NCBI GenBank assembly: GCA_001941135.1
Contig: MSHL01000042.1
Span: forward strand, 1-64,000
Source of the DNA: Ruminococcus sp. Zagget11
Lineage (GTDB): Bacteria > Bacillota > Clostridia > Oscillospirales > Ruminococcaceae
Length of the DNA: 64,000 bases
Direction: 5' to 3'
Shown in pieces: positions 4,096 to 20,966 of the stretch. A program made the position numbers and the translations under genes. Under the pieces are notes generated by a model. It searched no databases, had not been told where the DNA came from, and was given only the letters and a program-made list of their open reading frames with translations. Position 1 is the stretch's first letter. Each line of letters starts with the position of its first letter.

Positions 4096-5382
4096 TTATT
4101 CAAATCTCACCTTAATTGCGTGAGCGTGGGCGGTAAGACCCTCCCTGTCGGCTACGGTAACTATATCGTCCTTAGCGTCCAGAAGCGCCTGCTCGGTGTA
4201 ATATATAAACTGTGACCGCTTTGTAAAGCTGTTTACGGAAAGAGGGGAGAAAAATCTTGCCGTACCTCCTGTGGGAAGAACGTGGTTAGGTCCCGCAAAG
4301 TAATCTCCCAAGGGCTCGGGACTGTATTTACCCATAAACACAGAACCTGCGTTGTCCACCTTACCAAGCCATGACATGGGATTATCCACCATAAGCTCCA
4401 AATGCTCGGGGGCAAGGGAGTTGGCAAGCTCCACAGCCTTATCCACGCTCTCGGTAACAATTACCGCACCAAAGCTGTCGATAGATGCGCGGATAATATC
4501 CTTTCTCTCCAGTGCAGTCATCTGTTTTTCAAGCTCCTCAATGGTCTTGTCGGCAATTTCCTCGCTGTCGGTAATAAGTATTGCGCTTGCGATTTTATCA
4601 TGCTCCGCTTGGGACATAAGATCCGCCGCGCAGAAAACGGGATTGGCGGTTTTATCCGCAACAATAAGTATTTCACTGGGACCCGCTATCATATCTATAT
4701 CAACCTTGCCGTAAAGAAGCTTCTTGGCAGTGGCAACAAATATATTTCCGGGACCCACTATCTTATCCACTCTCGGTATAGCGTCCGTGCCGTAAGCAAG
4801 AGCCGCCACAGCCTGCGCGCCCCCGCACATGAATACCCTGTCCACTCCCGCAATTGCGGCAGCGGCAAGTATATCGGGATTGGGCTTTCCGTCCTTTCCG
4901 GGAGGGGTTGTCATAATAATTTCCTTTACCCCCGCAATCTTTGCGGGAACAGCGTTCATAAGCACGCTGGAGGGATATGCGGCAGTCCCTCCGGGAACAT
5001 ACAGCCCCACCCTTTCAAGACCGCGGACTCTCTGACCCAGTATACAGCCATTGCCCTTAGGATCGATAAAGCTCTGCTCTTTCTGCCTGTTGTGAAATTC
5101 GGAAATATTCTCCATGCAGTTGAGAAGTGCGGTGGTGAAATCGCTGTCCGCATTTGTAAGGGCATCGTTAATCACATCACGGGGAACTTCATAATATTCG
5201 GGCAGCTTGCCGTCGAATTTCAGAGTATATTCCTTAACAGCCTCATCGCCCTTTTCCCTAACATTTTCTATAATATCCGAAACAATCTGGGAAATCTTCT
5301 TATCCGTTTCGCCGTTCCGCTTTTCCACCTCTTTGAGAAAGCTTTTCTCGGTAGTACCGTCGGCTATTATTTTTTTTATCAT
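4096..5382 (-). CDS. hisD: Histidinol dehydrogenase
   Basis: YVPGGTAAYPSSVLMNAVPAKIAGV, GPGNIFVATAKK, GPNHVLPTGGTARFFSPLSV motifs. Confidence 0.97.
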   Translation of the reverse strand: MIKKIIADGTTEKSFLKEVEKRNGETDKKISQIVSDIIENVREKGDEAVKEYTLKFDGKLPEYYEVPRDVINDALTNADSDFTTALLNCMENISEFHNRQKEQSFIDPKGNGCILGQRVRGLERVGLYVPGGTAAYPSSVLMNAVPAKIAGVKEIIMTTPPGKDGKPNPDILAAAAIAGVDRVFMCGGAQAVAALAYGTDAIPRVDKIVGPGNIFVATAKKLLYGKVDIDMIAGPSEILIVADKTANPVFCAADLMSQAEHDKIASAILITDSEEIADKTIEELEKQMTALERKDIIRASIDSFGAVIVTESVDKAVELANSLAPEHLELMVDNPMSWLGKVDNAGSVFMGKYSPEPLGDYFAGPNHVLPTGGTARFFSPLSVNSFTKRSQFIYYTEQALLDAKDDIVTVADREGLTAHAHAIKVRFE

Positions 5383-5397
5383 TGCTCCGTAAACCTC

Positions 5398-6033
5398 CTA
5401 TTCCTTTGTCTTTTCCTCAATCTCCGCAATCAGAGCCTCAATCTCCGATTTTCTCAGCTTCAGTGAAACCATATTCGCTATGAGCCTTGCGGAAATGGGG
5501 CATATTTCCTCGTACACCTCAAGACCGTTTTCCTTAAGGGTTGTACCCGTTTCAACTATATCCACAATCGCATGGGACAGTCCGAGAAGAGGTGCAAGCT
5601 CCACGCTTCCCTCAATCTTGACTATATCCACGTCCATATTCTTTTTCTCGAAAAACGAACGGGCTACATTGGGGTATTTTGTGGCAATCGTCTTTACTCC
5701 GTAGCCGCCGTAAAAGCTTCCGCCCTTTTTACCCGCAAGGGCAAATCTGCATCTTCCGAAGCCTAAATCGGAAAGCTCAAAGAACTTGCCGCCCATTTCC
5801 ATTATGGTATCCTTGCCCACAACGCCCAAATCGCAAACGCCGTTTTCCACATAGGTAATTACGTCCGCCGCCTTTGCAAGAACAACCTCAATCGAATCTC
5901 CCACAGGGAGAATAAGCCGTCTGCCCTTATCCCTTATGGCGGAGCAGTCATATCCCAGCTTTTCGAGAAGTCCCACTGTATCCTTTTCAAGTCTGCCCTT
6001 GGTAAGGGCAATTCTTATAGGTCTGTTTTCCAC
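5398..6033 (-). CDS. hisG: ATP phosphoribosyltransferase catalytic subunit, short form
   Basis: RIALTKGRLEKDTV... 211 aa short-form HisG, consistent with adjacent hisZ. Confidence 0.95.
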   Translation of the reverse strand: MENRPIRIALTKGRLEKDTVGLLEKLGYDCSAIRDKGRRLILPVGDSIEVVLAKAADVITYVENGVCDLGVVGKDTIMEMGGKFFELSDLGFGRCRFALAGKKGGSFYGGYGVKTIATKYPNVARSFFEKKNMDVDIVKIEGSVELAPLLGLSHAIVDIVETGTTLKENGLEVYEEICPISARLIANMVSLKLRKSEIEALIAEIEEKTKE

Positions 6034-20117: not shown

Positions 20118-20606
20118 TTATTCCTTATATTGTAAATACACCGTTTCCAATAGTGCCAAGTTACAACAGCGGGATTTTATATGCTTGTCATAACTCGTTA
20201 AATTACTATCCTCCGTTAAAATTAAATCCCTCAGTTTTTTTGCAGTTTCCTCTATCTCTTTCATATCTTCCTTAATAGCACGATATTGGTTCTGTAATAA
20301 TCTCCTATATGATAAATCACGCACGCTGTTAAAATCTAACATTATTAACACATTATCAGGCACAGGTATCATGTTGTTAAAGTTTATTGCACCCAATTTC
20401 CCATCTGCAATTTTGCGAAAATCCTTACCGTTTTTCATTCTTTGATGTTTAGCCTTAGGAGAAGTAAACGGTGCATAGTATTTAATATCGCCAACTTGAA
20501 ACACTATTCCCACATATGGTCTGCTTTCGTTTTTATTTAATTCTACCTTGTTATCAAAACGTTGCAAATAATGTATATATTCATCTTTTATGTAATAAAA
20601 CCTCAT
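20118..20606 (-). CDS. toxN: Type III toxin-antitoxin system endoribonuclease toxin, ToxN/AbiQ family
   Basis: 162 aa; FYYIKDEYIHYLQRFDNKV...YVGIVFQVGDIKYYAPFTSPKAKHQ..LGAINFNNMIPV...YRRLLQNQYRAIKE matches the ToxN/AbiQ pattern as recalled; preceded by tandem repeats and terminator. Confidence 0.88.
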   Translation of the reverse strand: MRFYYIKDEYIHYLQRFDNKVELNKNESRPYVGIVFQVGDIKYYAPFTSPKAKHQRMKNGKDFRKIADGKLGAINFNNMIPVPDNVLIMLDFNSVRDLSYRRLLQNQYRAIKEDMKEIEETAKKLRDLILTEDSNLTSYDKHIKSRCCNLALLETVYLQYKE

Positions 20607-20624
20607 ACTACCCCCATCACATAG

Positions 20625-20651
20625 AAAAAGGGGAACAAATGAATGCTCCCC
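20625..20651 (-). terminator. Intrinsic terminator between antitoxin repeats and toxin gene
   Basis: Minus strand GGGGAGCA-TTCATT-TGTTCCCC followed by TTTTT; position matches the regulatory terminator of known type III TA loci. Confidence 0.8.
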
Positions 20652-20659
20652 ATTTTTTT

Positions 20660-20773
20660 GGTTCTCTCTTTACGGCGGAGACTCGCCGGCTTTTTTAGGT
20701 TCTCTCTTTACGGCGGAGACTCACCGGCTTTTTTAGGTTCTCTCTTTACGGCGGAGACTCGCCGGCTTTTTAA
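20660..20773 (-). ncRNA. Type III antitoxin RNA (ToxI-like), 3 x 38-nt tandem repeats
   Basis: Three near-identical 38-bp direct repeats (plus strand ggttctctctttacggcggagactcgccggctttttta) starting at 20660, 20698 and 20736, immediately upstream of toxN and downstream of a consensus promoter on the minus strand. Confidence 0.85.
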
Positions 20774-20788
20774 TATTTCACTGAATCC

Positions 20789-20809
20789 GATAACGGTATA
20801 TCCGTTATC
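20789..20809. promoter_or_regulatory. Palindrome in the 5' leader of the antitoxin transcript
   Basis: GATAACGG-TATAT-CCGTTATC, perfect 8-bp arms between promoter and first repeat. Confidence 0.6.
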
Positions 20810-20817
20810 CTATCCTT

Positions 20818-20846
20818 ATTATACACTATTGACCTGCTTTTGTCAA
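20818..20846 (-). promoter_or_regulatory. Consensus sigma-A promoter for antitoxin/toxin
   Basis: Minus strand TTGACA (20846-20841), 17-nt spacer, TATAAT (20823-20818). Confidence 0.85.
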
Positions 20847-20966
20847 GGATTATTATATGTATATATTTGGAATATAAGCGGTATAATCCATATGGAGCGG
20901 CTCTGTGCATATAATCCGCGAATAAATCATATACTACACTTATCCTACGAAATCGGAGAAAAGACC

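Follow-up and report, generated by a model that had tools for sequence, protein, structure and literature searches.

What is the short AT-rich cassette on the minus strand of this 64-kb stretch of DNA (the window): a complete type III toxin-antitoxin locus, as the first-pass annotation had proposed, and if so, of which subfamily, with which mode of action and with which history? Since a ToxN/AbiQ profile match and a ToxN-like structure occur together with ToxI repeats, we assign the cassette with high confidence to the chromosomal type III toxin-antitoxin loci of the ToxN/AbiQ (ToxIN) subfamily, with a predicted ToxIN-type mechanism. Profile, structure, catalytic residues, repeats, pseudoknot and gene order agree on this identity. 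The cassette extends from 20846 down to 20118 in the order promoter, leader hairpin, repeats, terminator and 162-aa ORF:

20841 to 20846, minus strand: -35 box TTGACA, perfect match
20818 to 20823, minus strand: -10 box TATAAT, perfect match
20789 to 20809, minus strand: 5' leader hairpin, 8-bp perfect palindrome with the loop ATATA (fold test, relatives)
20653 to 20771, minus strand: toxI antitoxin array, three 38-nt repeats plus a 5-nt remnant (arrays in relatives)
20630 to 20651, minus strand: intrinsic terminator between toxI and toxN, expected to be leaky (hairpin followed by a T run)
20118 to 20606, minus strand: toxN, ToxN/AbiQ-family endoribonuclease toxin, 162 aa (profile, structure, residues)

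This order had already been read from the letters, and we recovered each element at the same position. The promoter, described beforehand as TTGACA-17-TATAAT, is of the sigma-70 type and matches the consensus at 12 of 12 positions with a spacer of 17 nt. toxN has a weak Shine-Dalgarno sequence (GGGGG), which lies close to its ATG. At 32.1% G+C compared with 46.8% in the whole window, the toxN segment belongs to the lowest 0.2% of 489-nt stretches, and it lies between core genes, i) pyrH, frr, uppS and dxr on one side and ii) genes for a polysaccharide deacetylase, a MATE protein, lysA and lon on the other (some named by Pfam match, the remainder read from the translations), so the description as an AT-richer insert between housekeeping-like genes holds. 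On the opposite (plus) strand, the deacetylase ORF extends backwards without a stop codon over 20643-20936 into the toxI array, with a possible start at 20643. Since the homology of the relatives' deacetylases begins only after 20937, this longer start is an ORF-calling trap.

The toxin itself is readily recognized. Over residues 1-160, and thus at full length, the product matches Pfam PF13958 (ToxN_toxin) at 4.5e-49 with 167 bits (cutoff 25), and it shares the PADLOC AbiQ profile (1.9e-43) with the AbiQ/antiQ system of Lactococcus (4glk), which bears out the ToxN/AbiQ pattern first noticed in the ORF. In a phmmer search against solved structures, ToxN 7d8o was found at 1.9e-19, together with 4ato, 2xd0 and AbiQ 4glk. 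An AlphaFold2 model built from 26 aligned sequences (pLDDT 93) retrieved the same four structures in Foldseek (2xd0, 4ato, 7d8o and 4glk, TM 0.75-0.83) and no other PDB entry below E 0.001; on this model, the product is predicted to have the ToxN fold. With the ToxIN systems of Pectobacterium atrosepticum, Bacillus thuringiensis and Escherichia coli (2xd0, 4ato, 7d8o), the locus shares this fold (TM 0.80-0.83), the repeat-terminator-toxin order and the H-type pseudoknot, whereas the structure-based identity of the toxins is only 28-33%.

The active site points in the same direction. T48-S49-x-K51 aligns with T52-S53-x-K55 of ToxN, a T-S-x-K motif common to our toxin, 2xd0 and 7d8o, and in the alignments R29 occupies the position of K33 of E. 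coli ToxN. K33, T52, S53 and K55 are the active-site residues of ToxN, and E. coli ToxN clusters 4 and 5 likewise have Arg in place of K33 (PMC8860590). All residues that are invariant among the relatives in the 26-sequence alignment are present. Besides, Lys53 sits at the position of W57, a residue required for the toxicity of E. coli ToxN (PMC8860590); Lys is invariant at this position in the 26 aligned sequences, and the exchange gives a hint that toxins of this group contact RNA in another way. The two other type III families that we considered fit poorly: the TenpN profile NF047358 gave only 19.1 bits (cutoff 90), and no CptN structure was among the phmmer or Foldseek matches, while CptIN repeats have 45-46 nt compared with the 38 nt found here.

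The antitoxin side of the locus consists of the units 20771-20734, 20733-20696 and 20695-20658. Tandem Repeats Finder (TRF) reported 38 nt in 3.1 copies with 96% matches, in line with the three 38-bp direct repeats seen at first reading, and the score of 224 is the highest in the window (runner-up 108). Of 80 homologous loci drawn from a genome collection (L001-L080), 68 have arrays of a single kind of repeat, in most cases 34-39 nt long, with AAAAAAGCGGTGAGTCTCCACCATAAAGAGAGAACCT as the typical repeat of the window's clade. Their pattern is that of the ToxI H-type pseudoknot, with stem 1 GG[C/T]...[G/A]CC and stem 2 UCUC...GAGA. Since an Rfam search of the locus gave zero matches at E<=1, the RNA call rests on the comparative analysis of these related repeats. 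In 39 units of the clade, pairing is complete in stem 1 (100% of the cells) and reaches 88.5% of the cells in stem 2; for the pseudoknot as a whole 91.3% of the cells are paired (84.4 in shuffles), and pairing falls from 91% to 45-55% if the partner is slid by one to three columns. Changes on both sides of a stem were found in 36 cells compared with 15.0 in the shuffles. Across all loci, stem 2 has at least 3 bp in 129 of 133 unique units (shuffled mean 84.5, maximum 95 in 2000 shuffles). The A residues at bases 19 and 20, which make A-minor contacts in ToxI (PMC8860590), occur in 97/105 and 95/105 units, respectively. Folding of one unit alone gives stem 1 only, because the program is unable to form pseudoknots. 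The GAGAGA run of the window units permits two registers of stem 2; relatives with GCGAGA allow a single one, which is the register used in our analysis. By these comparative features, we place the window repeats in the ToxI family of H-type pseudoknots.

The alignment of relatives also uncovered a pair of bases outside the two stems. Base 12 joins the pseudoknot stems and base 21 lies two bases before the 3' strand of stem 2. In E. coli ToxI, the conserved U12, U22 and G21 form a U12:U22:G21 triple (PMC8860590), whereas the window has C at base 12 and A at base 22. Of 105 unique units from relatives with an unambiguous register, 93 allow a Watson-Crick or GU pair between bases 12 and 21 (54.0 expected; reached by 0/5000 shuffles), with limited phylogenetic independence of these counts. 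The window units fit the pairing but were excluded because their stem-2 register is ambiguous. Base 12 showed no excess pairing with bases 18, 19 or 22 and only a slight excess with base 20. The states U-G, C-G, A-U and G-C all occur among the relatives, and compensation is seen even between units of one array (C-G and G-C in L007, C-G and G-U in L073, A-U and G-C in L077). On the toxin tree, we counted 13-14 base 12-21 changes. A sign test on this tree with two supported independent purine/pyrimidine contrasts (five on all branches) was not significant; since these contrasts are too few, the claim rests on the unit counts, the 13-14 changes and the within-array compensations. In an alignment restricted to the window's clade, only one of the two equivalent columns, 11 and 20, was variable. 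Read in this way, the three positions would form a triple that co-evolves, with the published U12:U22:G21 as one of its states and C12:G21 with A22, in the window, as another.

Upstream of the array, the leader palindrome GATAACGG-ATATA-CCGTTATC folds with -13.8 kcal/mol (z -4.5), a stability that was reached by none of 200 shuffles. At this place, downstream of the -10 box and upstream of the first repeat, 24 of 35 non-redundant loci have a hairpin (p<=0.025), compared with 2 of 35 control segments. An earlier test on leaders truncated by 8 nt gave a smaller excess (14/54 vs 6/54); the rules for choosing the segments were changed a single time, between this result and the 24/35 count. Over about 35 related loci the structure of these leader hairpins is conserved and their sequence variable. 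Possibly, the hairpin protects the 5' end of the antitoxin precursor or serves as an operator. In the ToxIN literature that we searched, with incomplete coverage, we found no description of the 12-21 covariation or of the leader hairpin, and both may be new. We see about an even chance that a co-evolving 12-21 triple and a structure-conserved but sequence-variable 5' cap hairpin are general features of ToxI.

At the other end of the array, a terminator-like hairpin (20651-20630) is followed by TTTTT. The region folds with -17 kcal/mol (z -2.2; 6/200 shuffles were not worse), and a comparable hairpin precedes toxN in 63 of 77 relatives checked. The arrangement thus looks like a rho-independent terminator between repeats and toxin, together with a single upstream promoter. 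Judged by its sequence, the locus has every feature by which type III ToxIN loci are recognized. Its architecture recurs at about 70 homologous loci.

How unusual is it, then? The repeat had been thought to differ from known family members; this did not hold, as it is almost that of the toxIN locus of [Ruminococcus] torques ATCC 27756, a gut bacterium (L017 in our set; PMC6315513). This locus is catalogued as toxIN with 163 aa and 38 nt x 3.2 (PMC6315513) and is the nearest catalogued relative that we found. Its toxin is 57% identical over 160 residues, and it has a 163-aa ORF, a terminator, a leader hairpin and the repeat AAAAAAGCGGTGAGTCTCCACCATAAAGAGAGAACCT; differences are a 37-nt spacing, a degenerate first unit and stem 1, which reads GGTG...CACC instead of GGCG...CGCC. 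The ToxN of the Lactococcus plasmid pCV56A is 44% identical with repeats AAAAAAGCGGTGAATCTCCACCATTAAGTGAGAATC, but differs in being plasmid-borne, in its Lactobacillales host and in its shorter repeat unit. Our locus is consequently an intact-looking, ordinary one, whose family and close relative are already known.

Regarding its history, toxN is present in one copy in the genome (2.0 Mb, 69 contigs, 86.7% complete). No close copy was found in 19 genomes of the same genus, where the remaining ToxN homologs are 28-41% identical, and 2 of 396 genomes of the order, the window's own included, were positive at E<=1e-30. The order frr-pyrH-lipoprotein-GDSL lipase is kept in relatives of the same genus (GDSL 51-62% identical), the gene that follows GDSL is not the same in the three relatives with ORFs listed, and the remaining same-genus genomes have no contig with both a GDSL and a deacetylase match; we therefore place the cassette at a boundary of synteny that is variable. 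No clean empty site was found in the genus. Direct repeats of at least 10 nt flanking the cassette, such as a target-site repeat, were absent. Since PADLOC gave only cross-family matches (SbcC-like ATPase and Lon) for ten other window proteins, there is no defence island in view. In the toxin tree, the window toxN falls into a clade of Lachnospiraceae and Oscillospiraceae, in which a Treponema subclade (SH-aLRT 97) is nested, implying transfer between phyla. The Treponema copies are L008-L011 and L014; L013, from a 'Bacteroidales' bin, is nearly identical to L014, and its contig was probably misbinned. Homologs, named 'type III toxin-antitoxin system ToxN/AbiQ family toxin' by NCBI, occur on 192 plasmid records, many of them mobilizable or conjugative, and homologs are also found in 3 phage records; a scan of IMG/VR found no relatives of the locus. 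One phage, Clostridioides phage pCD1602_4 (L124), carries an unannotated homolog (record positions 5224-5673, 43% identical), in front of which lie three ToxI-like repeats and a terminator-like hairpin. Taken as a single AT-rich copy among core genes, our locus was probably acquired horizontally.

By homology to characterised ToxIN systems (PMC5086642, PMC8860590), we infer processing, inhibition, complex assembly and an anti-phage or maintenance role. One promoter would drive the repeat RNA, the repeats would fold as H-type pseudoknots, and ToxN would cleave the precursor within the A-run linkers between them. The resulting 38-nt units would assemble with ToxN in a head-to-tail manner and would occlude its active site. 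Owing to the terminator, a minority of transcripts would reach toxN, and since read-through is rare, the antitoxin is proposed to stay in excess. If its supply stops, for example because a phage takes over transcription, or if the locus is lost, unbound ToxN would cleave A-rich mRNAs and growth would stop.

Three other explanations have to be weighed. The locus could be a decayed or inactive ToxIN remnant that has lost its function: it is a single copy without a close counterpart in the 19 same-genus genomes, its ribosome-binding site is weak and it has Lys at the W57 position. However, the ORF and terminator are intact, the promoter is perfect, the three repeats are 96% alike and the residues invariant in relatives are all retained, which makes decay very improbable. 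Still harder to believe is that the repeats, instead of giving a protein-binding antitoxin, regulate an unrelated RNase gene as its leader or attenuator. Repeats and a terminator ahead of a gene do resemble attenuation and no RNA family was matched, but the units fit the ToxI pseudoknot including the conserved A19-A20 and accompany ToxN at about 68 loci.

The third explanation accepts the same module and sees its main role in selfish maintenance (addiction) after transfer rather than in phage defence. We consider this a real possibility, if short of probable. It is favoured by the patchy presence in the order, by the Treponema copies nested within the Clostridia clade and by the homologs on mobilizable and conjugative plasmids, and published ToxIN systems vary in anti-phage activity, which was found in some, not all, of the tested members (PMC5086642). 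On the other hand, a lone chromosomal cassette adjoining core genes would now gain little from addiction, and the anti-phage action of ToxIN-Pa and AbiQ is proven (PMC5086642). For the type III locus described here, anti-phage activity, and with it the abortive infection put forward in the first-pass annotation, is plausible.

In itself, the locus leaves the knowledge of type III systems unchanged. It is a well-formed addition to a ToxIN subclade that Lachnospiraceae and Oscillospiraceae share with Treponema and that is for the most part of gut and rumen origin. The alignment of this subclade and its relatives provides testable rules for the antitoxin RNA, an interstem triple and a 5' cap hairpin, which could bear on antitoxin specificity and stability.
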